NCBI RefSeq assembly: GCF_001939115.1
Contig: NZ_MQTZ01000041.1
Coordinates: 250,816 to 314,815, forward strand
From: Leptolyngbya sp. 'hensonii'
GTDB lineage: Bacteria; Cyanobacteriota; Cyanobacteriia; GCF-001939115
Length of the DNA: 64,000 bases
Direction: 5' to 3'
Position numbers and translations under genes: made by a program. Under the pieces are notes generated by a model. It saw nothing but the letters and a program-made list of their open reading frames with translations, searched no databases and was not told the origin of the DNA. The number at the start of each line of letters is the position of its first letter. Positions within the stretch are counted from its first letter, which is position 1. This document shows, in pieces, positions 858 to 16,025 of the stretch.

Positions 858-2813
858 TTAAGGAGCGATCGACAACCGCCAGCGCAGACGCCCGATCGCA
901 TGGGGGAGCAGATCCAACGCCAAGCTGCCCGATCGGGTCTGCAAGATTTCCTCCTGCCGCTGACGAAAAGCCTCTGGGGTGGTCATGGCCTCTAGGATGG
1001 TGTGTTCGTCGAGCGATCGTAGCCCCACCGCTTCCCCCAATCCCTGCAGTTGCACCGACTGGGTTGCAGCAGTCAGGTTGACGACAAGGACGCAGTGCTC
1101 ATCACCCCGACACAGGGCTAGCCCGTCCACTTGCAGGGGATGGCTGGCATGGGTCGGCAACACCTGAGCGGGGGCCAGTTCTCCCACGTCTGCCAGAACA
1201 TGGTACAGGGGAAACACCGATCCGGGTAGGGAAGGGAACTGCTCCGGACAGGAACAGCCCTGCTCCTGTTCCATGACGCCGCGCCAACCGGTGGTTTCGT
1301 AGTAGGTGAGGCTGTGGACTCCCGGTTGGGACAGGTATTTCAGACTGATTGCAGTCCAGCCTGCGCCCAGGAGGGACATCTGCCGGGGGTCTACGGTGGG
1401 GGGCAGGCTGCCGGGAGGGGTGGCGATCGGCTGGGCAGGCCGGGGCTTCAGGGTGATGGGGGAGATGATCAGGGGCAGATCTCCGGCCAGGGTGCGGGCC
1501 GAGGCGATCGTGGTGGCCTGGGCTTCCAGGGTTTCCACCAGGGAGGCATTATCGAAGGCATGCACCTGGGGGGTAATGGCGTAGCTCAGCACATCCAGAT
1601 GCTTCAGAGGGGAACAGCGCCGGTTCAGTTCGGTGAAGTGGGTGAAACTCCCGGCCCCCAGGTGCATCCCTGGCAGATGGGGGGAGAGAATGCGACGGGC
1701 CAGTTCAATCCACCGGCCAGAGGTGGTTTTCTCCTCCCGATGAAAGATCAGACCGGTCTGGAGGGGTGGCTGGAGTTCCCGCAGCAGCGTCACCAGATCG
1801 GTCAGCTCCCGTTCTGCGTCATCGGACAGGAGCAGAGCCAGTTCCAGAGCCAGATTCAACGATCGGGCCTCTGCTGTGGCCTGTCGCAACCGATCGCCCG
1901 TCTCTGCCTTCCCCAGGGGCAGATCCACCCGCAGGTGGGAGAGGTGGAGGGCGCGGAGTCGCTCCTGTTCCCGATCGCTCAGGGGTTGGCCGTGGCTGGC
2001 CATGCCTAAACCCAGTCGGGGCAGGGGCACAGCCTCAGTGGAGTCTACGATCAACGTCGCATCCCCTCCTGGGAGGGGTGGCCCGCAGGGCCGGGGTGGG
2101 TCTGAGGGGAGAGGCTCCCCCGCCAAGCTTAGTTCCACAGATTGGGTGATCCGCTTTCCCGCCTGCACCTCCACCGGGAAAGGCAAGGCTAGCGGGGTGC
2201 AGTAGGTCTTGAAGGAGGCATCCGTCCAGTTGCGCTGATCCTCCATCTCGAACACATCCCCCACGAAGCGCAACTGGGCCATCACCCCAGGGGTAACCGC
2301 ATAGGCCATACCCTGCAGATCCATGAAAGGCTGGTGGGGGGCGATCGCATCGGGAAACACCCCCACTTCGGTGGTGCCATCTGTCTTCAGGATTGTACAG
2401 GGCAGACTGCGACATTCCCGCATGGGATGGAGAATGCAGAACCCAATGCGATTGCGGTGAAAGGTCGATCGGGCCTGGCCATCCATTGTGAACTGGATGC
2501 GCCCCTGTTCATCCCCCGTAATTTCAGCTTGCCAGACAAAATCCACCACCTCTTGTTGGTGGCTCGCCTCGTAGGTGATGCGGAAGGACTGGTCATGAAT
2601 CTCAGTTCGCAGGTGGGCGATCGTCATCGGAATGGTGCGCCAGTTCTGTACACGCACCGCCACGTAGACCCGGCGCAGAATTTCCCGATCGCCGAGGCGA
2701 ATATAGCGCAGGTCGCCCGCTTGATAGATCAGGGAAAGGGGACCAGCCCGCAGGGGAATTTGCTCGGGTAAGGGTTCAGAGCAGCCATAGTAGAAAATAG
2801 TTGGAGGCAGCAT
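858..2813 (-). CDS. D-apionate lactonase-like protein
   Basis: A 651-aa protein when started at ATG 2813, which lies one base after the TAG of the upstream oxidoreductase gene (TAGGATG), so translation is probably coupled. A longer form from 2849 would overlap that gene. The N-terminal half contains DLRYIRLGDREILRRVYVAVR and FEMEDQRNWTDASFKTYCTPLA (shown in part), the pattern I associate with bacterial D-apionate lactonases: a beta-sandwich, a TIM-barrel-like middle (about 280-540) and a C-terminal beta domain. The family opens the lactone of a branched-chain sugar acid, but many members are uncharacterised, so the substrate here is open. A dispersed repeat is carried in frame within the linker at about residues 238-253. 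The cluster context of sugar dehydrogenases and an isomerase fits a sugar-acid role. Family call is from memory of motifs. Confidence 0.6.
   Translation of the reverse strand: MLPPTIFYYGCSEPLPEQIPLRAGPLSLIYQAGDLRYIRLGDREILRRVYVAVRVQNWRTIPMTIAHLRTEIHDQSFRITYEASHQQEVVDFVWQAEITGDEQGRIQFTMDGQARSTFHRNRIGFCILHPMRECRSLPCTILKTDGTTEVGVFPDAIAPHQPFMDLQGMAYAVTPGVMAQLRFVGDVFEMEDQRNWTDASFKTYCTPLALPFPVEVQAGKRITQSVELSLAGEPLPSDPPRPCGPPLPGGDATLIVDSTEAVPLPRLGLGMASHGQPLSDREQERLRALHLSHLRVDLPLGKAETGDRLRQATAEARSLNLALELALLLSDDAERELTDLVTLLRELQPPLQTGLIFHREEKTTSGRWIELARRILSPHLPGMHLGAGSFTHFTELNRRCSPLKHLDVLSYAITPQVHAFDNASLVETLEAQATTIASARTLAGDLPLIISPITLKPRPAQPIATPPGSLPPTVDPRQMSLLGAGWTAISLKYLSQPGVHSLTYYETTGWRGVMEQEQGCSCPEQFPSLPGSVFPLYHVLADVGELAPAQVLPTHASHPLQVDGLALCRGDEHCVLVVNLTAATQSVQLQGLGEAVGLRSLDEHTILEAMTTPEAFRQRQEEILQTRSGSLALDLLPHAIGRLRWRLSIAP
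2056..2102. repeat. Dispersed palindromic repeat inside a coding sequence
   Basis: The + strand reads ATCCCCTCCTGGGAGGGGTG followed by GCCCGCAGGGCCGGGGTGGG. This matches the reverse complement of the intergenic copy at 617-660 over about 40 bases with few differences, and partly matches 769-814. Here it is read in frame by the minus-strand lactonase-like gene as a Pro/Gly-rich insert (about SDPPRPCGPPLPGGDA), so the insertion or retention kept the reading frame. Confidence 0.75.
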
Positions 2814-2814
2814 C

Positions 2815-3954
2815 CTAGGTCCAAAGCAGGGATTTTGTTTCCACATCAACGGGCTCAGCCCCGTCCTGACAGAGGGGAGACAGGAGGGTGGCCCGACCAG
2901 CCAGACGATGGAGCAGGATGGTATTATGCAGTGCCATTGCTAGGGAATAGGGATTTTCCCCCGTGCCTGTGAAGTAATCGACAGCTCGCTGCAAATGAAC
3001 CCCCATACAGTCATCCTCCACCGGGGCCAGAACCCCGACGATGACCTGGTTTTTGAGGGTAATCACCGCCCCCTGGGAGCGATGAAAATTGGGGAGGGGC
3101 TCAAAAAAGCCCACGATTGTGTATTCATCCCCAGCCGGATCGGTACCCGTCAGAGCGACCAGGCGATAGCGGGTCAGGGTATCTTCGATCGGAATATTCT
3201 CAATCGAGAATAGGGGGTAGCGATATTGTACGATGCCTGCCATGCAGGTGTAGAGTTCCACTTCCACGCCCGTTTTAGAGCGGCAGCGGACAAAGGCACT
3301 CCCCTGATTGCGGGCACAGGTTTCGCCCTGGCAATGTAGTGGGGTAGACGGTTCAATAATCCGAGAATCAATAATTTGATCGATCTGAAGTTCTTCCCCC
3401 AGTTGGGCCACGATCGCCAGCATGTGAGGCCCTTCATACCCCAGAACCCCCAGATCGTAATCGATGAAGCGGCCTCCAATGGAGTCAAGCTGGCGGTTTT
3501 TGGTAAACTCCACTACGATTTTGGAGGGACGTAAGCCCAATTTGCGAAAGGCAATTTCTTGGACAATGCCCGTAATTTTTGAAGAGGCGTAATTTTCATT
3601 CACCACGATTTTTCCACCGAAATTGACGATCGTGGTTGTGAGTGATGGAATTTCTGCCAGTAAACAGACAGGTTTCTCCACCAGGATATTGGCCTGTGGA
3701 TCAACCTGAAGAATTTGCTGGATGACATTGAAATGTTGACTGGTATTGACACAGATATCCCAGAAACCAGGTCGCAAGGGGGCTGCCTCGGCGCAGGACG
3801 GTAAAACCAGAAAACCAGCCTGTTCTGCCTGCTGCTTTTTTTGACTGTCTGTATCGATGACCGCAACAGTCTTGACTCCAGATTCACTGAGTTTCTGTTC
3901 ATGAAGTCGGGCAACTGTTCCGTAACCTACCCTGGCACACGTAATTTGCGACAT
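2815..3954 (-). CDS. Gfo/Idh/MocA family NAD(P)-dependent oxidoreductase
   Basis: A 379-aa protein. The N-terminus has a Rossmann glycine motif (VGYGTVARLHEQ), a beta-strand ending in an acidic residue for the nucleotide ribose (TVAVIDTD), and the diagnostic Glu-Lys-Pro (ILVEKPV) near residue 94 that supplies the catalytic lysine. The C-terminal half is the alpha/beta substrate domain with GYEGPHMLAI in place of the usual Asp-x-Gly-x-His segment. Members oxidise or reduce sugars, inositols or sugar nucleotides. It is followed directly by the lactonase-like gene and preceded by a 104-bp gap containing a possible promoter. The exact substrate cannot be read from the sequence. Confidence 0.82.
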   Translation of the reverse strand: MSQITCARVGYGTVARLHEQKLSESGVKTVAVIDTDSQKKQQAEQAGFLVLPSCAEAAPLRPGFWDICVNTSQHFNVIQQILQVDPQANILVEKPVCLLAEIPSLTTTIVNFGGKIVVNENYASSKITGIVQEIAFRKLGLRPSKIVVEFTKNRQLDSIGGRFIDYDLGVLGYEGPHMLAIVAQLGEELQIDQIIDSRIIEPSTPLHCQGETCARNQGSAFVRCRSKTGVEVELYTCMAGIVQYRYPLFSIENIPIEDTLTRYRLVALTGTDPAGDEYTIVGFFEPLPNFHRSQGAVITLKNQVIVGVLAPVEDDCMGVHLQRAVDYFTGTGENPYSLAMALHNTILLHRLAGRATLLSPLCQDGAEPVDVETKSLLWT

Positions 3955-3984
3955 GCTAGTCGTCCCTACTTCATTAATGAGTCA

Positions 3985-4012
3985 TGTATAATATGCTACC
4001 TGGAACCACCAA
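3985..4012 (-). promoter_or_regulatory. Possible sigma70-type promoter for the oxidoreductase gene
   Basis: On the minus strand TTGGTG (4012-4007) and TATACA (3990-3985) are separated by 16 bases, about 30 bases before the ATG at 3954. An inverted repeat AAAGGTC/GACCTTT (4035-4041 and 4054-4060) lies just upstream at the end of the preceding gene. Both are weak, pattern-level calls. Confidence 0.35.
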
Positions 4013-4058
4013 TAACATGAACTTGTCCGGTTAGAAAGGTCATTTTGGGGCTAGACCT

Positions 4059-4898
4059 TTACAGGGCAGCCAGGAGCGCATTCAGGTGTCTGATGGATGC
4101 TTCTGTTGCCGCCATTGGACTTTTCTGCACATGGGTTTCCATGGAAAAAGGAATGGATGCTTCCTGCAACCAAGGTTTTAGAACTTTCAAATGCACCTGA
4201 TACTGGACTGAACCTTCTCCCAAGGGAACATAGGTGCCCTGGGGAGTTGAGAAATCCTTGAGATGAACGTACTTAACGTAAGGGGCAACCTGGAGCAGTT
4301 CTGCATCGGTCACCAGATAGCCACTCTGGTAAAGATTACCCAGATCCAGCAGCGCCCTCAACCGGGGATGATTCCAGTCAGCCAGGAACTGGGCCACCTG
4401 AGGCAAGGAATCCAGATTGCAGACTGGCTCATTTTCTATAAGCAGCGTCTTGTCATGCTGCTCGGCTAAAGACAGTAGCGCTGTCATATCTGCCTCCAAG
4501 TCAGCAAACTGAAAATCTGCATATTTCAAATAAGAGAAAATCCGCAGGGATGGGGTTTGCAGGATATCTGCGATCGCAAAAGCCTGAGCGAATACCTCTG
4601 AGACCTGATCCGTTTCTAGCTGGTAACCGTGAAAATTAACTTCCTCCATTAGGGCGACTTTACCCGGTGGTAGCCATTTCAGCAGGGGTGAAGCCAGATT
4701 GGCCACGGTTAAACCAGCCTGATGAATCGTGGTCGCAATCTCCCGGATTTGTTCCAGGTCCAGGTCCATCAGGTTCACCCCACCGACGGACCGTAATTCC
4801 AATTGAGTCATGCCCTGGCGCTGGGCAAAATCGATCGCCTCGGTTAAGGAAGGGCTGACTTCATCAGAAATAAAAGTGATGGGGTTGGACTTAGCCAT
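4059..4898 (-). CDS. Sugar phosphate isomerase/epimerase-like TIM-barrel protein (AP-endonuclease 2 family)
   Basis: A 279-aa protein from ATG 4898, which overlaps the end of the upstream AroE-like gene by eight bases (ATGGCTAA); a longer form from 4997 would overlap it by over 100 bases and is unlikely. The xylose-isomerase-like barrel is recognisable from ordered metal-ligand segments: LLIENEP, ALLDLGNLYQ, YVKYVHLKDF and PFSMETHV, which provide the Glu, Asp, His and Glu typical of the superfamily. The superfamily covers sugar isomerases, epimerases, inosose dehydratases and 3-dehydroshikimate dehydratases. With an AroE-like dehydrogenase directly upstream, either a carbohydrate or a shikimate-type substrate is possible; I cannot choose. 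Confidence 0.75.
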   Translation of the reverse strand: MAKSNPITFISDEVSPSLTEAIDFAQRQGMTQLELRSVGGVNLMDLDLEQIREIATTIHQAGLTVANLASPLLKWLPPGKVALMEEVNFHGYQLETDQVSEVFAQAFAIADILQTPSLRIFSYLKYADFQFADLEADMTALLSLAEQHDKTLLIENEPVCNLDSLPQVAQFLADWNHPRLRALLDLGNLYQSGYLVTDAELLQVAPYVKYVHLKDFSTPQGTYVPLGEGSVQYQVHLKVLKPWLQEASIPFSMETHVQKSPMAATEASIRHLNALLAAL

Positions 4899-5838
4899 GG
4901 GAATATCGCTGTTCCAGGAGGTGTTGTAATTTAGCTTCAATGTCACGGAACGGGGCCTGGGAAACATCTTTGCCAGTCCACAGGGCAAAGGCTTCAACCG
5001 CCTGATAGATCATCATCCAGATGCCGGAACAGGTGGGTGAGCCTCGCTGAGCCAGGAGCTTGAGCATCAGGGTGGTATGGGGATTGAAAACGGCATCGAA
5101 GGTCCACAGGTCTTTCATGCTACGTTCCTGTTCCAGGCGATCCAGCAGTGCTGGCGTAACTAGCGAGTCGTTCGTTTCGGGATACATCCCTACAGGGGTG
5201 GCGTTAATCAGGAAATCGGCAGTTCGCAGGCAATCGTAGAGCGCAGCATCCCGGATCAGGCTGACCTGCAGGGGTTTGCGATCGGGGTTGTGGAAATCTT
5301 TGCTCAGGGACTCTAGCTGGGCCGGAATCTGGCCCAGAACGGTAATCTCATCCGTGCGCTGATATAACTCATAAATAATGGCCCGGGCTGCTCCCCCAGA
5401 CCCCAGTACAGTCACCCGATCGCCAGATTTGACCGGGCGCAGGTGATCTGAGATCGATCGGTAGGCCCCCACGCCATCTGTGTTGTAGCCAATCAGCCCA
5501 CTGTTGCCCATCACGACCGTATTAACGGCTCCGATCGCCTGGGCGCGATCGTCTTGGGCATCCAGGTATTTGACGACGGCCAGTTTATAGGGGAGGGTAA
5601 TATTGACTCCGGCACAGCCAATTTTGTGCAGACTGTGGAGGTACACCGGCAAATCCACTTCTGCGGGAACGTTCAACTTAATATGGGTATACTCCAGATC
5701 GGCAATCTTGGCATACTCTGAAAAAAGATAGGTGGAAACACTGTGCTCTACGGGATTGCCCAGTAATGCGGTAAAAATCATTGTTGCAGGATTGTTTTGC
5801 GACTGATCCATAAGATCAGGAAGACCTATCAATACCAT
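4891..5838 (-). CDS. Shikimate dehydrogenase-like protein (AroE family)
   Basis: A 315-aa protein, long for AroE (about 270-290). The family starts at MIFTALLGNPVEHSVST, so an internal ATG at 5781 or 5811 may be the true start. Visible motifs: the Ser-x-Ser substrate loop (HSVST), the catalytic-Lys segment VNITLPYK (usually TxPHK or TxPFK), AIGAVNTV, GYNTDGVG with the conserved Asp, and the NADP-binding GSGGAARAIIYEL. It should reduce 3-dehydroshikimate or a related cyclitol ketone. As the first gene of a cluster with an isomerase, a Gfo/Idh oxidoreductase and a lactonase-like protein it may be a specialised paralogue (quinate- or cyclitol-type) rather than the housekeeping enzyme; whether another aroE exists in the genome cannot be seen. 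Confidence 0.78.
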   Translation of the reverse strand: MVLIGLPDLMDQSQNNPATMIFTALLGNPVEHSVSTYLFSEYAKIADLEYTHIKLNVPAEVDLPVYLHSLHKIGCAGVNITLPYKLAVVKYLDAQDDRAQAIGAVNTVVMGNSGLIGYNTDGVGAYRSISDHLRPVKSGDRVTVLGSGGAARAIIYELYQRTDEITVLGQIPAQLESLSKDFHNPDRKPLQVSLIRDAALYDCLRTADFLINATPVGMYPETNDSLVTPALLDRLEQERSMKDLWTFDAVFNPHTTLMLKLLAQRGSPTCSGIWMMIYQAVEAFALWTGKDVSQAPFRDIEAKLQHLLEQRYSHG

Positions 5839-6319
5839 TCATCGCAGATCGAAGCATATCCGTCCTTTCCATAACAAGTCAGATCACCGTATTTTTATGA
5901 AAGAAATTATATTATCCTGTTGGCCTGTCAGCGATTGAACAGAGTGCATCCCACTTTTGTAGCCCACCCTGCAGGAAGCAAGCTACACCCTAAATCCCTC
6001 TCCCAGAACGGGAGAGGAATTTAGAATCTGGCTCCCCTTCTCCCAAAAAGGGAGAAGGGGCTGGGGGATGTAGACGCGCAGCGGCTTCCCCTTGGGTGGG
6101 CAACCTTGCAAAACTGGGATGCTCTCATTGAACAGACCTGAGAGGCTGCAAACCCACCTTTCCTTGGAGGGGATTTAAAGTAAGTAGGTAGACCTAATGA
6201 TTTGTAGGAAGGGTGGAGTGAAGCGAAACCCATGCGGTTGTTGGGTTTCATTCTTCAAAGCAACCTACGCCATCTGTAATTTAATTACGCCCACCTTCTT
6301 AGCGCTGAGCGATTGATCT
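5839..6319. repeat. Divergent intergenic region with dispersed repeats
   Basis: This region separates the AroE-like cluster (minus) from the LarA-like gene (plus) and should hold promoters for both, though I see no convincing -35/-10 pair. It contains palindromic repeat modules. At about 5997-6064 are CTCTCCCAGAACGGGAGAGG and CCCCTTCTCCCAAAAAGGGA, two hairpins in tandem. At about 6176-6200 is AAAGTAAGTAGGTAGAC, similar to AAAAGTAAGTAAGTAGAC at 745-762. At about 6206-6250 is GGAAGGGTGGAGTGAAGCGA. No gene is supported. Confidence 0.6.
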
Positions 6320-7516
6320 ATGCAAAGAATCAAATTAGAGGTCCCTTCCGTACTCTCTAGAGAAGAAATTTTACAGAAACTGGCCTTATTTTTCGACACT
6401 GTAGTGCTGACTGGACGGAAGGTTTTGATTATCTGTGAGGATGTCACTCGCTCTACCCCGATCGACCTGTTCTTTCCAGATTTTTTACAGTATCTCCAGC
6501 GTCGAGCGGCTGCTGTTACAGTTTTGTTTGCCCTGGGCACCCATCGACCCATGACCCATCTGGAAATGGTGCAGAAACTGGGTCTGACTGATGAGCAAGC
6601 CAGGGAACTGCCCCTGCTCAACCACAATGCCTTTGACGAAGCGGCCTTGGTGGATGTGGGAGCAGTGGAATCGGTGCCCCTAAAGGTGAATCGGGCTCTG
6701 GCTGAACATGAGGTGATTGTGGCCCTGGGCAGCGTTCTGCCCCATCGGGTCATGGGCTTTTCGGGTGGGGCTAAGTATCTTTGTCCGGGGGTGGCGAATA
6801 AGGCCATGATTGACTACACCCACTGGAAGAGCAACCTGTTTCCCGAAGAGCAGGTGATGGGGAATATTGACAATCCGATTCGGCTGATTCTGGATGCGAT
6901 CGCCGATCAGATCGCCGATCGCTTGCCGGGAGACTACGTCTCGATTAACTGTGTGACGGCTCCCGACGGGATTGTGGATCTGTTTGTGGGCAGTTTTTAT
7001 CAGTCTTACCGGCAGGCTGCTGCCCTGACAGCCCAGGTTCTGTTCAAAACCGTCCCGGAATGTTCCAGGCTGCTGGCCATCCTGGACGATAAATGCACTG
7101 ACTTCTGGCAGGGAGCCAAAGCTGTGTATAACTGTGGGGCGGTGATTCGGGATGGGGGCACGATCGTCATCCAGGGCGCACTACCGGAAGGGATCTCTGC
7201 CAGTCACGGCCCCGTGATCGAAAAGTTTGGCTATTCCACACCGGAACAGATCTTTGCTCTGGTTGAAGCTGGGGAGTTTACTGATCAGGTGGTTGTAGCC
7301 AGCCACATGGTTCGGGTGAGTCAACGGCTACAGCGCCTGAACATCTTCCTGGCTTCAGAAAATATCGACCCGGCCACCTGTGAACGGGTGAACCTGGGAT
7401 ATCGCGACCCCCGATCGATCGACGAAGCAGAATTTGACTATGTGGTGTATAACCCGGCTGATTTAATCCTGGTTAAACCTGAGGACCAAACAGGAACATC
7501 CAGAGCGGTAGCGTAA
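6320..7516 (+). CDS. LarA-like nickel-dependent 2-hydroxyacid racemase/epimerase
   Basis: A 398-aa protein, close to the usual length of the LarA/DUF2088 family (about 420). Motifs in order: DVTRSTP (41-47), GTHRP with His75, PHRVMGFSGGAKYLCPG (141-157) with His142 and Lys152, and DYTHWKS with a further His. These match the residues that hold the nickel-pincer nucleotide and shuttle the proton in lactate racemase. LarA-family enzymes racemise or epimerise 2-hydroxy acids including sugar acids. The cofactor makers LarB, LarC and LarE are not in this window. It is divergent from the dehydrogenase/lactonase cluster and converges with an AEC transporter gene, overlapping its 3' end by 44 bases. 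A sugar-acid epimerase is a reasonable inference; lactate racemase itself is not proven. Confidence 0.8.
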   Translation: MQRIKLEVPSVLSREEILQKLALFFDTVVLTGRKVLIICEDVTRSTPIDLFFPDFLQYLQRRAAAVTVLFALGTHRPMTHLEMVQKLGLTDEQARELPLLNHNAFDEAALVDVGAVESVPLKVNRALAEHEVIVALGSVLPHRVMGFSGGAKYLCPGVANKAMIDYTHWKSNLFPEEQVMGNIDNPIRLILDAIADQIADRLPGDYVSINCVTAPDGIVDLFVGSFYQSYRQAAALTAQVLFKTVPECSRLLAILDDKCTDFWQGAKAVYNCGAVIRDGGTIVIQGALPEGISASHGPVIEKFGYSTPEQIFALVEAGEFTDQVVVASHMVRVSQRLQRLNIFLASENIDPATCERVNLGYRDPRSIDEAEFDYVVYNPADLILVKPEDQTGTSRAVA

Positions 7517-8492
7517 ATAGCAAAGAGATCGACCCAAAGACCACGGCAGTCACAGCCAGTTCCTGGTCCAGATTGTAAGCCTCGGCATAGAGGATGGTGG
7601 CAAAGGAGGGAGGCATGGCCATCATCAGCACAATCACCAGACGGGGATCACCGGTTACACCAAAAAACATCAGGCCGGTGCCTACAATCAGGGGCACGGC
7701 CACCATTTTGATCGCCAGACAGGTAAAGGCCTGATTGAGCTTGCTGAGGCTGGCCAGATGGCTCAACTGCATCCCAATCAGAACCAGGGACAGGTTGACG
7801 ATCGTTTTGGCTCCGGTTTGTAAGCTTTGTTCCACTAAACCGGGCAATGGGATATTCTGCACTGCAATCCCAATCACAAAACTCCAGAGGGCTGGGTTTT
7901 TCAGCAACACCATGACGAGATTTTGCGATTGTTGCCGTTGCTCCCCTTCCTTTCTCTTGCCAAAGTGAGCGGCAACCGTAAAGCCCAGACCATGCAGCCC
8001 CAGGGTTGTGCCGAAGGTATTGTAAAGGACGGCCCAGACAAAGTATTCTGGCCCCACCAGGGACAGTACCACTGGAAAACCCATGTAGGCGGTATTGCCC
8101 ACCATCATGGCCATGAGAAAACTACCCTGAGTGCCCCGGCCCCAGGCCGTTTCCATCCCCCTCTGGTCACTATCTTGTTCACCGTTGGATTTGATCCCTA
8201 ACGCCAGGGCTTTTAAGCGCTCATCGTTGACCCCTAATTCAATCCAGATCCAGGCCAGACAGGCTCCGACAATGATGGCGACCCAGGCTGCCACCGGCGC
8301 AATCAGAATGTAACCAGTGAGATTGGTGCGGCGCATGAAGGCCACAATACTGATGGGGATGCCGACCCAATACAGGGCTTTGCCCACATACTTAGGGGAA
8401 CTCCGGGGAAGGAGCCGCCCCAACACATATCCCAACACGGCCCAACCAATCAGGCTGGCATAAAGATTAATCAGTGGATTTTCCAGATTCAT
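7473..8492 (-). CDS. AEC family transporter (auxin efflux carrier type)
   Basis: A 339-aa integral membrane protein with about ten predicted helices in two halves separated by a hydrophilic loop near residues 100-125. N-terminal LIGWAVLGYVLGRLL, the conserved MMVGNTAYMGFPVVLSLVG segment, NPALWSFVIGIAVQ, and the C-terminal MAMPPSFATILYAEAYNLD segment are characteristic of the AEC (mdcF/PIN-like) family, which moves small organic acids such as malonate or auxins. Its 3' end lies inside the 3' end of the LarA-like gene on the other strand. A neighbouring racemase for hydroxy acids makes an organic-acid substrate plausible. Confidence 0.85.
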   Translation of the reverse strand: MNLENPLINLYASLIGWAVLGYVLGRLLPRSSPKYVGKALYWVGIPISIVAFMRRTNLTGYILIAPVAAWVAIIVGACLAWIWIELGVNDERLKALALGIKSNGEQDSDQRGMETAWGRGTQGSFLMAMMVGNTAYMGFPVVLSLVGPEYFVWAVLYNTFGTTLGLHGLGFTVAAHFGKRKEGEQRQQSQNLVMVLLKNPALWSFVIGIAVQNIPLPGLVEQSLQTGAKTIVNLSLVLIGMQLSHLASLSKLNQAFTCLAIKMVAVPLIVGTGLMFFGVTGDPRLVIVLMMAMPPSFATILYAEAYNLDQELAVTAVVFGSISLLFTLPLWMFLFGPQV

Positions 8493-8884
8493 AACAGCCG
8501 TTTAAGCACCTTGGGCCAGAGAGGGGAAACCAATAAAATGTTTCAATCGATTGAAGTACGGACAGCCATAGCCAATCGCATTTCACCTGCCAGAGAATCG
8601 CGACCAAGCGGGGGCAATGGCCATAGCTTTCTTCCTGAACCCCCGTATTGTGAGGATTCTAATATTTATACCGAAAGAAATGGAACCGACCCGAAAGAAT
8701 GGAATAATAACCGTGGTTAATTGAATCTTCGGGTTCTACTAACTCCTATCAGTTGTAAATTATTCTGATTGTGAGTAATTTTGCACTCCTTTGATCTGAT
8801 ATAGACTGTATGCCCAGTGAATGGGTACCAGGTGTCATTCTTATCAGATTTTCAACCTTAGATTTAATGTTAGGCGGACTTTCA
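8493..8884. other. Intergenic region with a short direct repeat
   Basis: No gene is supported in this AT-rich gap between divergently oriented genes. Two near copies of a 15-base word (CCGAAAGAAATGGAA at about 8672 and CCGAAAGAATGGAAT at about 8691) are spaced 19 bases apart and could be regulatory sites. The ribosome binding site AGGCGGA (8872-8878) belongs to the next gene. Confidence 0.45.
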
Positions 8885-10276
8885 ATGTCAGGTATAGCGA
8901 TGCGTAAGCGGATAGTAACCCTGGTAGTACTGTTTTTCCTGTTTTTTGGATTGGCCACCTGTACCAATACTCCTAACCCCAATCCCACCTCCAATACTCC
9001 CACCCAACAAGATGGCAAATTTCGAGTCTGGTGGCAGCAAGGTTTTTACCCAGAAGAAGCTGAGGCCATTCGGAAATTGGTGGCTGATTGGGAACGGAAA
9101 AGTGGTCAGAAGGCTGAGCTGACTCTTTTCAGTGATAAAGACATTGTCAGAGAGACAGAGAATGCGATCGCAACCGGCCAAACTCCTGATTTGATGTTTA
9201 ATCCGGCTGTGGATCTGACCCTGATTCCCCGTCTGGCTTGGGATAACAAGCTGGCTGATGTTTCTGATGTGATTGAGCCAATCAAGAGCTTCTATACCCC
9301 AGAAGGCTTGGCTACCGTCAATTATAAGAACAAAAGCCAGAACAAACGGAGCTATTATGCCGTTCCGATCGGCCTGCAATCTTCCCACATTCACTACTGG
9401 CGTCCGATGTTGAAGGAAGCTGGCTCAGATGAAAAGGTGCCCGAGGGCTGGGATAGCTTCTGGAAGTACTGGGAAACGGCCCAGGATAAGTTGCGTGCCA
9501 AGGGTCAGAAAGATATCTATGGTCTTGGTCTGCCCATGTCCAGGGCCGCCAATGATACCTTTTACATTTTTGGTCAATTTCTAGAAGCTTATGAGGTTCA
9601 ACTGCTGGATGCGCAAGGCCAGCTTCAGTTGGATAAGCCAGAAGTCAAGCAGGGTATTACTGAGGCCCTGAAGAAATACACCAGCTTTTACCAGAGCAAG
9701 CACGTCCCACCGGAAGCAATAGATTGGAACAACGCGGATAATAACGTCACGTTTCTCAGTCGTAGCACTGTGATGACGATCAACCCGTCTCTCTCCATTC
9801 CTGGTTCCCAGAGACAGGATCAGCAAACTTACCAGACGGACATGGCGACGATCGAGTGGCCGAATAAGCCGAATGATAAACCCATGACTTATCTGGCCGG
9901 GATCAAGCAAATTGTGATCTTTGAAAACTCAGTGCACAAGAAAGAAGCCAAGGATCTGTTGGCTTATCTGGTCCAACCAGAAAACCTGGCCGCCTTCCTG
10001 AAAGATTCCCAGGGCCGCTTCTTCCCAATTATGCCGAAATTACTGGAAGACCCCTTCTGGGCAAATGCGAAAGATCCTCATATTTCCAGTGCGGTGAGGC
10101 AATATCGCTTCTGGCGGCCTTATCAGCAGGCTCTGAACCCTGCCTACACGGAGGTTCAGGCTCAGAATATCTGGGGATCTGCCATTCTGGATGTGGTGAA
10201 GAATGGTCTTTCAGTTGAGCAGGCAACCGACAAAGCGATCGCCAAGATTAAAACAATCTTTAGCGAATGGACGTAA
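8885..10276 (+). CDS. Sugar ABC transporter substrate-binding lipoprotein
   Basis: A 463-aa protein from ATG 8885, chosen because AGGCGGA lies six bases upstream; ATG 8900 is an alternative. The N-terminus has MRKR, a hydrophobic stretch and an LATC lipobox, followed by an Asn/Pro/Thr-rich linker, so it should be anchored outside the membrane. The rest is a CUT1-type extracellular solute-binding fold: FRVWWQQGFYPEEAEAIRKL, PDLMFNPA, YYAVPIGLQSSHIHYWRPML, PEGWDSFWKYW, and the C-terminal KKEAKDLLAYLVQPENLAAFL. It binds a sugar or oligosaccharide for import. No permease or ATPase is adjacent; two CUT1 permeases lie more than 30 kb away (41.5-44.1 kb). The link between them is inference. Confidence 0.85.
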   Translation: MSGIAMRKRIVTLVVLFFLFFGLATCTNTPNPNPTSNTPTQQDGKFRVWWQQGFYPEEAEAIRKLVADWERKSGQKAELTLFSDKDIVRETENAIATGQTPDLMFNPAVDLTLIPRLAWDNKLADVSDVIEPIKSFYTPEGLATVNYKNKSQNKRSYYAVPIGLQSSHIHYWRPMLKEAGSDEKVPEGWDSFWKYWETAQDKLRAKGQKDIYGLGLPMSRAANDTFYIFGQFLEAYEVQLLDAQGQLQLDKPEVKQGITEALKKYTSFYQSKHVPPEAIDWNNADNNVTFLSRSTVMTINPSLSIPGSQRQDQQTYQTDMATIEWPNKPNDKPMTYLAGIKQIVIFENSVHKKEAKDLLAYLVQPENLAAFLKDSQGRFFPIMPKLLEDPFWANAKDPHISSAVRQYRFWRPYQQALNPAYTEVQAQNIWGSAILDVVKNGLSVEQATDKAIAKIKTIFSEWT

Positions 10277-10482
10277 GGAGGATGGAGAGCTTTACAGCCT
10301 CTCCATAGGGATAGGGTTATTCTGTTGAAACAGGGTTGAGTCAAGTTATCAAAACTCAGCCCTGAATCCTGTATCTGATTATCCCTGATCCTATTTTCAA
10401 ACTGTTGTAGGGTGTAAGGGACTTTGCTCTCAGCAATGGAATGCCGTTCGGTAACGCTAAAGCGGCAGATTAAGGGGTAGAT
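10277..10482. other. Intergenic hairpins after the sugar-binding protein gene
   Basis: GGAGAG-CTTTACAG-CCTCTCC at about 10282-10304 and a longer imperfect hairpin (CAGGGTTGAGT ... ACTCAGCCCTG) at about 10331-10368 follow the stop codon. Neither has a clear T tract, so termination is possible but unproven. The rest of the gap leads into the kinase gene at 10483 without a recognised promoter. Confidence 0.4.
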
Positions 10483-13400
10483 ATGAACTTTCTTAAGAAA
10501 AGCCTGCTGTCTAAGCTGGTTGGCTATTTCTTTCTGCTATCAGCTTTCACAGTCAGCATCCTCGCCTGGACGGTTAACGATCGGGCTAGGGATTCTCTGA
10601 AACAATCGGTGTTCGATCGCTTGACGGTGGCTACTTCCTTGAAAGAGTACCAGCTCAATCAGTGGATTGACGACCAGCGTCGAGATGTGGTGTTGATCAG
10701 TCAATTGCCAGAGATTCAGCGCGAGGTCGAAGTCCTGCTGAAGCAGAAGCCTGGGGATGAGGCTTACAAAACCTCCTACGAAATCATCAAAGAATATTTG
10801 ACCAATATCGCCGGGATCAAACCCCAAATTGATGACATTTCGATCCTGACCAACGGTGGCATCGTCGTCTTCTCAACGGATACCAAGCGCGTGGGTAAGT
10901 ACCAGCCGCTGGGGAACACCACCACTTACTTCAATCCTGAGAAAGATTTTGTCGTCAAACCGAATTTTTATACCTCGGTGATTACGGGTAAGCCAATGAT
11001 GACCTTTGCGACCCCGATTACAAGCAAGGAACGGGGGCGGGTAGCAGTCGTGGCGGTTGACCTGAACCTGGATGGCATTGATGCCATTATTCGAGAAAAA
11101 ACGGGTCTGGGGAAAACCGGTGAAACCTATCTGGTCGGCAGTCTGGAACGGAAAAACACCTTTATTTCCGGGGAAAAATATGGACAGAAAGTCTTTGTTG
11201 ATGGCATTTCCAGCATCGGGATTGACTCTGCGATGAATGCCAGGGATGGCAGTGGTCTTTACAAGAACTATGCCAAAGTCCCTGTGATTGGGGTTTATGT
11301 CTGGTTGGAGAATCAGAACCTAGCACTGCTGGCTGAGATGAATCAGAGTGAAGCCTTTGCGCCAGCCCGCCAGTTAGCTCGGGATATTCTGCTGCTCGGG
11401 TTAAGCTCAGCAACCCTGCTGCTGGTGGCAGTGTACTTGATGTCTCGCCGGATCACCCAACCCGTGCTGGCAATTACCAATGCGGCGATCGAAGTGGCCA
11501 ATGGCAATTTAATGTCCACCGCCCCGGTTATGACCCAGGATGAAATTGGCATTCTGGCCCAGGCGTTCAATAAGATGACCAGCCAGTTGAAGCTATCGAA
11601 TGCCCAGGTATCGGAGTATTCTCGCACGCTGGAGCACCAAGTCGAAGAACGCACGGCGGAGCTGGCCAGGGCCATGAGCGAAACCCAGGCAGCTCTGGCC
11701 TATGTGGGGGCTGTGATTGATAATCTGGCTGATGCACTTCTGGTGACCGATCCGAATGGGCGAATTAATCAAGCCAATCCTGCTCTGGAAGTTATTTATG
11801 GTCTCAAAGAGTCGGTCTTACTAGGGCAAGGTGTGCAGCAACTCCTGGGTGAAGAGGCCAGAACCCTGATCGAAGAAACCAAACAGAATCCAGGAGAGGC
11901 TAAGACTAAGGAATTTAAGTTACCTGGAAACCGTATTGGTAAAGCCGTAGCCACCGCGATCTTTAAAGTGGGGCCAGCGGAAGCAGGAGAAAATCTTTAT
12001 ACCGGCACCGTGATCCTGATTCGGGATATTACCCGTGAGAAGGAAGTCGATCAGATGAAGACAGACTTCATTTCGACCGTGTCTCATGAGTTGCGAACCC
12101 CCCTGACTTCAGTCCTGGGGTTTGCCAAGTTAATCCAGAAGAAGTTGGAAGAAAATATCTTCCCGGTCATTCAGACCGATGACAAAAAAGTCCAACGGGC
12201 CATGCGTCAGGTTGGGGAAAACATTGACATCATCGTGTCAGAGGGGCAGCGACTAACGACCCTGATCAATGATGTGCTGGATGTGGCCAAGATGGAGGCC
12301 GGTAAACTCGATTGGAAGATGGAACCGCTCCGAATTACCGAGATCCTCGATCGAGCCCTTGCCTCCACCTCGGCCCTGTTTGAACAGAAGGGGCTGCAAC
12401 TTGTTCGGGAGGTTGATCCAGAACTGCCTGAATTTTTGGGCGATCGCGATCGGCTGATCCAGGTTGTCATTAATCTGATTTCTAATGCTGTGAAGTTTAC
12501 GGACCAGGGGGCAGTCACCTGTAAAGCCTACAGGGCGGAGCGAGAAATTGTGGTCAGCGTGATTGACACTGGCATGGGAATCGCTGAAGTGGATCAACCC
12601 AAGGTGTTTGAGAAATTTAAGCAGGTGGGGGATACCCTGACTGATAAACCGAAAGGAACTGGCCTGGGTCTGCCAATCTGTAAGGAGATCCTGGAACACC
12701 ACGGCGGCAGAATCTGGGTCGAGAGTAAGCTGGGCCAGGGGAGTATCTTTTCTTTTGCCCTGCCGTTTATTTCATCCGATGCTATCTCTGAGATCAAAAC
12801 GGTCGATATCGATAAGCTGGTTCAGGAGCTACGGGACCAGGCAACTTCGACACAGTTGACTCAGAATGTAGGTCAAAAGACAGTCCTGGTTGTGGATGAT
12901 GACATCAGTATTCGCGTGCTGTTGAGACAGCAACTGGAAACGGTAGGCTATCGGGTCCGCGAAGCGGAAGGGGGGATGGAAGCTATCAGTCAGGCGAAGA
13001 AAGATCCCCCGCACCTGATCATCCTGGATGTGATGATGCCCAAGATCAACGGCTTTGATGTGGCAGCGGTGATGAAGAATGATCCACTCACCATGGACAT
13101 TCCCATCATCATCTACTCTGGAATTGAAGATCAAAATCGAGCCTATCGGATTGGGGTGGATCTCTACCTGACCAAATCCGGGGAGTCGGAGGAACTGCTA
13201 AAGCAGGTTGATCTGCTGATTACTCAAGGCACGTCTAAGAAAAAAGTGTTCATTGTGGATGAGGATGTCTCTACGATGAGAACCCTGGCTGAGGCTCTGG
13301 AGGCCAGAGGCTATAGTGTCGTTGAAATTATGACGGGCGAGGAGTTTAAGGAGCGGGTTCAGACATTGCAGCCGGATATGATCATTGCGGATGCTGATTT

Positions 13401-13593
13401 CTGGACCCAGTCAGAAATTGTCCGATCGCTTCAGTACGAAAAGGGAATGCAAAATATTTCCCTGTTGCTGTTACGGAGCAAAGCAGACGAAACGATGATG
13501 ATCAATTCTGGCAATGGCAATTCTGCTGGCTCTGAAATTCCCTCTGATAGCAGCTCTGAGGCCGACCCCAACAATAGCTCAGTCTCTTCCTGA
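10483..13593 (+). CDS. Membrane hybrid histidine kinase (dCache-HAMP-PAS-HisKA-HATPase-REC-REC)
   Basis: A 1036-aa protein. A helix at about 10-30 and a second at about 300-322 bracket a periplasmic sensor of the double-Cache type. HAMP follows (RRITQPVLAIT...DEIGILAQAF), then a coiled coil and PAS (about 405-520, IDNLADALLVTDPNGRI). HisKA carries a canonical H-box (TDFISTVSHELRTPLTS). The ATPase has NLISNAVKF, DTGMGI and GTGLGLPICKEI. The first receiver has DDD, ILDVMMPKINGFD and a Lys (LYLTKSG). The second is shortened: it keeps an acidic pocket and IIADAD but lacks the Thr-Lys end and finishes in a Ser/Asn-rich tail. It should sense an external ligand. Its stop codon is two bases from that of the VgrG-like spike gene, which converges on it; whether it controls that operon is inference. 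Confidence 0.9.
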   Translation: MNFLKKSLLSKLVGYFFLLSAFTVSILAWTVNDRARDSLKQSVFDRLTVATSLKEYQLNQWIDDQRRDVVLISQLPEIQREVEVLLKQKPGDEAYKTSYEIIKEYLTNIAGIKPQIDDISILTNGGIVVFSTDTKRVGKYQPLGNTTTYFNPEKDFVVKPNFYTSVITGKPMMTFATPITSKERGRVAVVAVDLNLDGIDAIIREKTGLGKTGETYLVGSLERKNTFISGEKYGQKVFVDGISSIGIDSAMNARDGSGLYKNYAKVPVIGVYVWLENQNLALLAEMNQSEAFAPARQLARDILLLGLSSATLLLVAVYLMSRRITQPVLAITNAAIEVANGNLMSTAPVMTQDEIGILAQAFNKMTSQLKLSNAQVSEYSRTLEHQVEERTAELARAMSETQAALAYVGAVIDNLADALLVTDPNGRINQANPALEVIYGLKESVLLGQGVQQLLGEEARTLIEETKQNPGEAKTKEFKLPGNRIGKAVATAIFKVGPAEAGENLYTGTVILIRDITREKEVDQMKTDFISTVSHELRTPLTSVLGFAKLIQKKLEENIFPVIQTDDKKVQRAMRQVGENIDIIVSEGQRLTTLINDVLDVAKMEAGKLDWKMEPLRITEILDRALASTSALFEQKGLQLVREVDPELPEFLGDRDRLIQVVINLISNAVKFTDQGAVTCKAYRAEREIVVSVIDTGMGIAEVDQPKVFEKFKQVGDTLTDKPKGTGLGLPICKEILEHHGGRIWVESKLGQGSIFSFALPFISSDAISEIKTVDIDKLVQELRDQATSTQLTQNVGQKTVLVVDDDISIRVLLRQQLETVGYRVREAEGGMEAISQAKKDPPHLIILDVMMPKINGFDVAAVMKNDPLTMDIPIIIYSGIEDQNRAYRIGVDLYLTKSGESEELLKQVDLLITQGTSKKKVFIVDEDVSTMRTLAEALEARGYSVVEIMTGEEFKERVQTLQPDMIIADADFWTQSEIVRSLQYEKGMQNISLLLLRSKADETMMINSGNGNSAGSEIPSDSSSEADPNNSSVSS

Positions 13594-13595
13594 GA

Positions 13596-16025
13596 TCAAA
13601 ATCGGGAAATCCCATCCTTCACAAAGGACCCATTCAGGGTGAGTCCTCCGTTGATGGTGACATTGCCGTTGAGGACGATCGTGGGGGCCGAAATGGTCAC
13701 GACAGAGGCAGTGAGGGTGATTGCGATTGGGGACAGGATATTGACTAGGGCGGCACCGGTCAGGTTCAGCATCCCTGGTGTGGGGAGGGTGATACTGAGG
13801 GAATCCGGTACTGCACTGATACTGATGCCAGGGGAAGTAAGATAGGCCTGCTGGGGTAACACCCTGGCAGAGGAGCCCGTGCCAGCGACCAGGGTCACCC
13901 CTCCCAGGGAAAGCTGATTAATATAGCCCCCGGTCAGTTCAATGCTGCTCAAAAAGTTGGCGACCTTTGCGGTCAGCATCTGAGCGGCTGTTCCGGGAAC
14001 CTGGGACGCCTGCGCCCCCAGGGCTGCGAAGGCACCGGCAGAAAACAGGGTTCCCAGAATCGGGGGACTCCCGGCATTGATCACCACATTGCCGCTGGTA
14101 TTCAGGTTGATCTGGGGTTGCAGGGATAGGGCGGTGGGCACATCCACCAGGCTGATACTCTGGCGGGCGGCTGTTTGTAAACTGATGCCCGATTCCGAAC
14201 CTGCATCATTCAGTTTCAGTCCATGCTGACGAGAGGTTTTGAGTTGAATACAACTCACCTGAGCCCGATCAAGGTCGCACAGATCCAGGGTATGCCCTCC
14301 CGCAGTCCACAAATGGTTGCCCTTGAATCCCAGTAGGGGGGCAAGGCCAAACAGGGACGTTGCTGATCCACTTGCCTGACCGGTTTCAGATAAGGCAGCC
14401 GTGGTTGATGCATCCTGCTCGGCAAATTGGAGTTGATGCCCCACTCGGGTTTTGAAGGTTCGCAGGCGCACCGTGCCCATGTCAGAACCTGATGAAACGA
14501 CGGAATTAATCGTATTGGGGGCAGAGGCGAAGCTCTCTGGCGGTTTATCAATGCCATTCCAGACCCCACCCAGGATGTAGGGTCGATGAATGTCGCCATG
14601 TTCGAATGCCACCAGAACTTCATCTCCAATTTCCGGCAGACAGTCAAACCCCCGACTGGCCCCAGCCCCCACCGCCACCATTCTGGCCCAATAACTGTTG
14701 TGCTCTTCCGATAGGGTAGGAAATTTGACCCGCACCCGTCCCCAGCCGTTGGGGTCCCGATTTTCGGTGACGATGCCCACCAGGAAGGTCTGGCCGGGTC
14801 GCAGGGGATGGCGAGGGGCGATCGTACTCAACAGATCCCCACTCCGCAGCCCCCGCACACTGAATTCTGTCGTGTAGATATTGTTGTCGTACAGATGTCG
14901 GGTTTCAGTGACATAATACTGACCCGTGTATTTGCCCATATCTGTGAGCTTGACGACCCGTCCAGCCCGAATCTCCGGATTGCCTTCCGCCCGCGCATCG
15001 GCATAGATGAATTCCCCACCCAGCTCATCATAGAGGGCCTGGGCAATCATTTCGGCTTCTTCAATCCCAAACACGGGTTGATCCACCACCACCATACGGG
15101 GACTGGCCGGTTTGCCGTTAAAGATACTGGCCGTCTCATTGCCGTCACCCTGATCGGTGCTGGTCAGGACCTGGGCACTGCTCTTAATGGAAACGATCGG
15201 CTGTTTGCGGCTATAGTCCCAACTGCGAACCTCAACGGCACTGACCTGTTCCGCACTACTGGCCCGGACCCGAAAACCCAGGAGTGTGTCCTGCCAGACC
15301 AGGGTGAGGGTTGTCTCGGCAGTGGGCTTGCGAAAGTAGAGCTTGCTGTTTTCAACAAAGAGTTCGAAGCCGTGGCGGGCGGCACGCTCCCGCAGGAACT
15401 CCATGTTGGTCTGATTTTCCTGGAAGACATAGCCATTCACGCCACTGATGTCGTTATAGCCATAGGGACCCTCAGTGGCCTCGATCGTCCCGGCTTGAAT
15501 CCCGACCTCTCGCACAATCCGCGTCACAATATCGCTGTCGGTCATGTTCTGAAAGGAACGATTGTAGCGGCCCCGGTGTAAGCGATGGGAGATATCGTAG
15601 CCCCGGATGACGATCGGGGCCTGGGATTGCAGGCTGAAGTGGGCCTCGATCGCCGTCACTTCCCCTTCAATGACATAGGTGTAGGTGCGCTGGGTTTGAG
15701 TCGAAAACTGGTCAGTTTCAATATCGTAGGTGGATTCTACTGTCTGACCGGTTGAGTAATTCTCGTCCTGGGTGGTACGGGAGGCGAAGCCGATCCGGAT
15801 GCCGCTGCCAAACTGAAACAGGGAATCGTAGCGCCAGGGTTCATCATCCTCGTTAACTGGCATGTAGGAATTGCCAATCACAAGGGTGAACATGGCGGGC
15901 AGGTGGAGACTTTCTTCAACAGTGAGTTGCAGGATATCTCCCAGAAGTTCTTCTGAAGCGGCGGTCCAGTTGTCGCCCCCCACTTCTCCAAACTCAATCA
16001 TGAAATCAGCAATGTAACTGGGCAT
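13596..16025 (-). CDS. VgrG-like spike/baseplate protein of a contractile-injection-type system
   Basis: An 809-aa protein. The N-terminal 340 residues resemble the gp27/Afp8-type hub (IADFMIEFGEV at the start, MEFLRERAARHGFELFVENSKLYFR in part). Residues about 415-490 form the gp5-type OB fold, with GIVTENRDPNGWGRVRVKFP, YWARMV and GDEVLVAFEHGDIHRPYILG (split here), a strong signature of VgrG and phage baseplate spikes. The C-terminal 180 residues are short beta repeats rich in Thr/Asn/Gly (LNLTGAALVNI, VTISAPTIVLNGNVTINGG), a likely needle. There is no extra effector domain at the C-terminus. It is the last gene of a six-gene minus-strand operon. Mode of assembly and target are inferred from family knowledge. 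Confidence 0.88.
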   Translation of the reverse strand: MPSYIADFMIEFGEVGGDNWTAASEELLGDILQLTVEESLHLPAMFTLVIGNSYMPVNEDDEPWRYDSLFQFGSGIRIGFASRTTQDENYSTGQTVESTYDIETDQFSTQTQRTYTYVIEGEVTAIEAHFSLQSQAPIVIRGYDISHRLHRGRYNRSFQNMTDSDIVTRIVREVGIQAGTIEATEGPYGYNDISGVNGYVFQENQTNMEFLRERAARHGFELFVENSKLYFRKPTAETTLTLVWQDTLLGFRVRASSAEQVSAVEVRSWDYSRKQPIVSIKSSAQVLTSTDQGDGNETASIFNGKPASPRMVVVDQPVFGIEEAEMIAQALYDELGGEFIYADARAEGNPEIRAGRVVKLTDMGKYTGQYYVTETRHLYDNNIYTTEFSVRGLRSGDLLSTIAPRHPLRPGQTFLVGIVTENRDPNGWGRVRVKFPTLSEEHNSYWARMVAVGAGASRGFDCLPEIGDEVLVAFEHGDIHRPYILGGVWNGIDKPPESFASAPNTINSVVSSGSDMGTVRLRTFKTRVGHQLQFAEQDASTTAALSETGQASGSATSLFGLAPLLGFKGNHLWTAGGHTLDLCDLDRAQVSCIQLKTSRQHGLKLNDAGSESGISLQTAARQSISLVDVPTALSLQPQINLNTSGNVVINAGSPPILGTLFSAGAFAALGAQASQVPGTAAQMLTAKVANFLSSIELTGGYINQLSLGGVTLVAGTGSSARVLPQQAYLTSPGISISAVPDSLSITLPTPGMLNLTGAALVNILSPIAITLTASVVTISAPTIVLNGNVTINGGLTLNGSFVKDGISRF

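Follow-up and report, generated by a model that had tools for sequence, protein, structure and literature searches.

Gene content of the locus

In the window (the whole 64,000-nucleotide stretch of Leptolyngbya sp. 'hensonii' DNA analyzed here), positions 858 to 5838 hold four intact, open reading frames, all on the minus strand. Read in the direction of transcription, they encode an AroE-family paralogue (AroE2; 4891..5838), assigned from Pfam and NCBIfam matches, a residue table, and a tree; an AP_endonuc_2 TIM barrel of the isomerase, epimerase, or dehydratase type (4059..4898), assigned from Pfam, a PDB search, and its metal-ligand residues; a divergent Gfo/Idh oxidoreductase (2815..3954), assigned from its Pfam domain and a motif comparison; and a divergent ApnL-like lactonase (858..2813), assigned from an NCBIfam profile and a table of invariant residues. 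The Pfam and NCBIfam domain searches confirmed the family of each protein, with scores of 66.5 (Shikimate_dh_N), 59 (AP_endonuc_2), 36.7 (GFO_IDH_MocA), and 316 bits (ApnL profile), in agreement with the calls of the first-pass annotation. This annotation had also described four genes in one direction forming two coupled pairs. Indeed, ATGGCTAA at 4898-4891 couples the AroE-like and TIM barrel genes, and TAGGATG at 2817-2811 couples the Gfo/Idh stop codon to the ApnL-like start codon. Since the TIM barrel and Gfo/Idh genes are separated by a 104-bp gap, we can only infer that the four genes form a single operon. The AroE frame is open from 4891 to 5838, as initially delimited, but its start is probably at 5781 rather than 5838, because the homologues begin at the methionine of MIFTALLG.

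The three neighbors listed at the outset (a LarA-like epimerase, an AEC transporter, and a sugar-binding lipoprotein) are all present beyond the cluster, but the LarA-like gene is divergent, on the opposite strand. The LarA-like protein (6320..7516, plus strand), a nickel-pincer nucleotide (NPN) 2-hydroxyacid epimerase by domain and model matches and by alignment with 4nar, is separated from AroE2 by an intergenic region (5839..6319) that, from its position, is a possible shared control region for the two genes. A scan for promoter and terminator signals that included this region returned no more sites than shuffled sequence. The AEC-family transporter (7473..8492, minus strand) was rejected as a cluster member: its gene occurs in 86 of the 116 sampled genomes of the class, with a best identity of about 57%. 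As an ordinary native gene of cyanobacteria, it lends the pathway no support.

Beyond the AEC gene, the sugar-binding lipoprotein (8810-10276) appears as an orphan, and the next gene encodes a Cache-domain hybrid histidine kinase (the two spanning 8810-13593); no permease genes were seen beside them. Next comes a VgrG/baseplate-hub-like protein (13596-16025; Phage_base_V and Phage_GPD), with a possible contractile injection system downstream. At the other end, a protein combining HEAT repeats and an NTPase, whose gene holds nearly identical tandem repeats of 105 bp, reaches into the window at positions 1 to about 560 (L052:9829-12558; some bases of this gene are masked as N).

Active-site residues of the encoded enzymes

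AroE2 is not the housekeeping shikimate dehydrogenase; that it might be the only one, named in the first-pass annotation as grounds for refutation, is excluded. The same genome encodes a second AroE (G000:C17), the housekeeping copy, which groups inside the cyanobacterial clade in a tree that includes 17 further AroE proteins from cyanobacteria, while AroE2 falls outside that clade. The sister of AroE2 is an AroE encoded on a plasmid of Halorussus salilacus (support 100/98), although the AroE2 branch is long (2.3) and its deeper placement in the tree is uncertain. Accordingly, AroE2 shares 39% identity (212 bits) with the Halorussus protein versus 30% (106 bits) with its own housekeeping copy, and Halorussus is by far its top match among 392 plasmid records. 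In a scan of the genome collection, the sole match to AroE2 was an AroE relative from Devosia (36%), with no lactonase or Gfo/Idh relatives nearby. AroE2 retains the catalytic Lys85 and Asp121, as well as Ser33, Ser35, and Q279, as expected of the shikimate dehydrogenase superfamily; all but one of the shikimate-binding residues examined are kept. The exception is Phe251, shared with the Halorussus sister, at a position occupied by Tyr in 25 of the 25 other sequences of the residue table. In AroE, this pocket Tyr helps hold the substrate carboxylate. Its replacement makes an altered substrate plausible for AroE2.

The TIM barrel carries E155, D185, H212, and E254 at the usual metal-ligand positions. 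When the single sequence was searched against the PDB, its only match was the 3-dehydroshikimate dehydratase AsbF (E 4e-8). Taken with the shikimate-binding residues of AroE2, this might point to a diversion of shikimate or quinate, in which AroE2 would supply 3-dehydroshikimate and the TIM barrel would dehydrate it to protocatechuate, like AsbF and QuiC. We consider this distinctly improbable: the AsbF match covers only residues 101-220, MJ1311 scores level with AsbF in a profile search, the curated QuiC model has no match, the pocket Tyr of AroE2 is changed to Phe, and the lactonase, the LarA-like protein, and the Gfo/Idh protein would be left unaccounted for.

The Gfo/Idh protein has Lys94 within EKP, but GYExxH at the position of the DxxxH motif usual in these enzymes. 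GYExxH is common to the Gfo proteins of the window, of Halorussus, and of a set of Streptomyces fusion proteins, which form one clade. In the fusions, of about 906 residues, an adenosylhomocysteinase-like domain is joined to the Gfo/Idh domain, and their genes adjoin an AP_endonuc_2 gene and a phosphotransferase (L025:10393-13113, L027:10390-13113, L037:7393-10116, and L038:7396-10119). The Gfo profile had no match in 398 Pseudomonadota, a set that contained no positive control. The TIM barrel and Gfo/Idh families are functionally promiscuous, which counts against the explanation favored below.

The ApnL profile (NF049900) aligns over its full length with the ApnL-like lactonase, which lies next to a Gfo/Idh gene, as ApnL does to ApsD in rhizobia, an arrangement reminiscent of D-apiose or D-apionate catabolism. 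However, its score of 316 bits is below the curated cut-off of 750, and rhizobial ApnL controls reach 813 to 834 bits. The window Gfo/Idh protein scores at most 29 bits against ApsD, and ApsD, ApnO, OiaK, and OiaX were not found within the window by tblastn. Among 14 ApnL-family loci of Pseudomonadota, nearly all have a sugar ABC transporter, absent from our cluster, and most also hold ApsD, ApnO, OiaX, OiaK, or DenD; relatives of AroE2, the TIM barrel, Gfo/Idh, or LarA occur at none of them at the threshold used. We therefore reject the D-apiose pathway on the lactonase score, the non-ApsD-like Gfo/Idh protein, and the absence of ApnO, OiaK, and OiaX from the window, and regard catabolism of the rhizobial type as very improbable here. 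The lactonase nevertheless keeps 59 of the 78 family-invariant residues, with 19 changed or lost. An in-frame 39-bp repeat lies within the lactonase gene (2063-2101), where it adds residues at a place where other family members show a gap. The same repeat is found in an intergenic position at 773-811.

The nearest solved relative of the LarA-like protein is 4nar (E 6e-28), and its top NCBIfam model is a "putative hexonate epimerase" (NF052594; 143 bits, below the cut-off of 500). D41, R44, H102, H142, K152, H168, and K267 align with all of the catalytic and cofactor residues of LarA (D72, R75, H108, H174, K184, H200, and K298; PMC7583248). LarA groups 19 and 20 are demonstrated D-gluconate 2-epimerases, and residues R41, K164, and H180 are given for the D-gluconate 2-epimerase GntE2 (PMC7583248). 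We take 4nar to be GntE2, because these three residues carry the same numbers in our alignment. The LarA-like protein is nearest to D-gluconate 2-epimerase. In a search that covered LarC among the NPN cofactor genes, LarC was found in the genome; the plasmid contexts of LarA relatives were uninformative.

Phyletic distribution and plasmid-borne relatives

The five genes are restricted to this genome among the cyanobacteria sampled. A search for the gene set in other cyanobacteria, proposed with the initial description, returned no counterpart of any of the five in 59 to 388 genomes per search. Among sampled genomes of the same class or phylum, a single one, always the genome of origin, was recovered with the lactonase (out of 388), the Gfo/Idh profile (out of 386), the TIM barrel (out of 116), and the LarA-like protein (out of 116); none of the 58 relatives in a set of 59 has a second AroE. 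All of the sampled cyanobacteria lie outside the family of the window's genome, and closer relatives could still carry the genes. This pattern suggests that the five genes were acquired by lateral transfer, loss elsewhere being possible. The contrast between genes limited to their own genome and the common AEC gene places the acquired set at about 858-7516, with the LarA-like gene included and the transporter left out; by phyletic pattern, the LarA-like gene belongs with the four-gene cluster, though divergent.

The GC content of the lactonase gene is 0.62, and that of the other four is 0.50 to 0.53, matching the window, a difference hinting at a separate origin for the lactonase gene. The density of the HIP1 core CGATCG in the acquired region equals that found elsewhere. 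If the genes were acquired, the transfer was not recent, given the GC of the four genes, the normal HIP1 density, and the presence of an intergenic-type repeat inside the lactonase gene. No match was found in viral contigs and phages.

Our comparison of gene contexts leans on plasmid records. On the Halorussus salilacus plasmid NZ_CP099995, aroE, Gfo/Idh, and TIM barrel genes lie within 3.7 kb, their products sharing 39%, 29%, and 28% identity with AroE2, Gfo/Idh, and the TIM barrel of the window, respectively. This locus has Phe at the pocket Tyr position, a GYExxH Gfo protein, and an adjacent TIM barrel, as in the window, and an archaeal-type methionine adenosyltransferase (MAT) adjoins the trio. 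The recurrence of the three genes in a salt-loving archaeon suggests a real pathway.

Three Streptomyces plasmids carry a TIM barrel, a Gfo/Idh gene, a MAT of the same type, two unknown genes, and a CofE-like gene; an SDH-family gene comes next in two of the three and looks like a copy of an actinobacterial AroE. These TIM barrels are the closest relatives found for that of the window (32 to 35%), whereas the Gfo/Idh and SDH proteins of the cassettes belong to subfamilies other than those of the window. Two further Streptomyces plasmids carry glycosyltransferase-MAT-TIM-Gfo, with TIM and Gfo proteins only distantly related to ours, and one of the unknown genes of the Streptomyces clusters has a relative in a glycosyltransferase gene of the Halorussus locus. 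Across the Streptomyces plasmid cassettes (L034, L035, L036, L088, and L089), the TIM barrel, Gfo/Idh, and archaeal-type MAT genes are repeatedly together, some with CofE-like and SDH genes and others with glycosyltransferase and carbamoyltransferase genes. These cassettes are candidate undescribed biosynthetic clusters.

These contexts bear on a biosynthetic reading, in which AroE2, the TIM barrel, and Gfo/Idh would build a modified sugar or cyclitol for a specialized metabolite, with the lactonase and the LarA-like protein as tailoring enzymes. The occurrence of the same three families beside an archaeal-type MAT in Halorussus and Streptomyces, the two glycosyltransferase-containing plasmids, the kinship of the Halorussus glycosyltransferase gene with a Streptomyces cluster gene, and the fusion of the window's Gfo clade to an adenosylhomocysteinase-like domain are all consistent with it. 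However, an archaeal-type MAT is absent from the window genome, the cluster showed no gene for a glycosyltransferase, a ligase, or a carrier, and the Streptomyces Gfo and SDH proteins come from other subfamilies; we consider this reading rather unlikely. It may also be asked whether the acquired genes are unrelated neighbors sharing no pathway, as the deviating GC of the lactonase gene and the nonidentical gene content in Halorussus and Streptomyces could indicate. Coupled start and stop codons, the reappearance of the three families together in an archaeon and, in part, in Streptomyces, and the integrity and lineage restriction of all five genes make such a chance neighborhood improbable.

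Proposed function and comparison with known systems

We tentatively favor, with somewhat less than even confidence, a laterally acquired five-gene cassette that would process a polyhydroxy acid of an uncommon kind or the corresponding lactone. The substrate is most likely an unusual aldonolactone, an aldonate, or a cyclitol acid, with a hexonate-level sugar acid favored. The gene set, the active-site residues, the restriction to one genome among the sampled cyanobacteria, and the archaeal AroE2/TIM/Gfo core are its observed basis; from these we infer the acquisition by transfer, the joint function, the order and direction of the steps, and the substrate. In this scheme, Gfo/Idh would use NAD(P) to oxidize a hydroxyl group of a sugar or cyclitol, an aldonolactone would be opened to the aldonate by the ApnL-like enzyme, and the LarA-like enzyme would invert C2 of the resulting 2-hydroxyacid with its nickel-pincer cofactor. 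AroE2 would reduce or oxidize a ketone of a polyol that bears a carboxylate, and the TIM barrel would use a divalent metal to isomerize, epimerize, or dehydrate the keto intermediate. A lactonase yielding an aldonate and an epimerase inverting aldonate C2 fit each other, and the oxidation, reduction, and isomerization of a keto intermediate would suit AroE2, Gfo/Idh, and the TIM barrel with its metal site. The initial view still stands that the combination matches no known pathway and would suit a polyol, a cyclitol, or a branched sugar acid, but its apionate variant is weakened by the lactonase score and by the apiose genes not being nearby. Open-licence papers yielded nothing useful on this gene combination.

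Since the Halorussus core lacks both the lactonase and LarA, these two may serve another reaction. It is conceivable, if short of an even chance, that AroE2 makes up, with the TIM barrel and the GYExxH-bearing Gfo/Idh protein, a conserved but undescribed three-enzyme pathway that passes between haloarchaea and bacteria and whose AroE paralogue has ceased to act on shikimate. Were the trio a single pathway, the AroE fold would gain a new role outside aromatic biosynthesis, a new sugar-acid or cyclitol route would cross domains of life, and homology alone would be a poor basis for calling such genes aroE or apionate lactonase. Phe251 of AroE2 and GYExxH of Gfo/Idh offer group markers for targeted searches and assays.

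Compared with characterized systems, the TIM barrel shares its superfamily with the AsbF/QuiC 3-dehydroshikimate dehydratases, but the match is partial and weak. The rhizobial apiose/apionate operons (ApnO, an ABC importer, ApsD, ApnL, OiaX, and OiaK) resemble the window in having a Gfo/Idh gene that overlaps or abuts an ApnL-family gene; the window lacks ApnO, OiaX, OiaK, and the importer, its lactonase and Gfo/Idh are distant, and AroE2, the TIM barrel, and LarA are extra. With GntE2 (4nar), the LarA-like protein has in common the aligned catalytic and cofactor residues, an HW motif, and a C-terminal VNLGYxDP, but its gene lies in a different context, and its nearest hexonate model stays below cut-off. 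Among uncharacterized loci, the Streptomyces TIM-Gfo/Idh-MAT-CofE-SDH cassettes provide the closest TIM barrel relatives, accompanied by Gfo/Idh and, in all but one of the three, by SDH, but differ from the window in these two subfamilies and in the presence of MAT and CofE-like genes. The Halorussus locus differs in its mixed gene directions, its adjacent MAT, glycosyltransferase, and amidohydrolase genes, and its lack of a lactonase and LarA, yet shares three homologous genes with the window, including sister AroE2 proteins with the same Phe.
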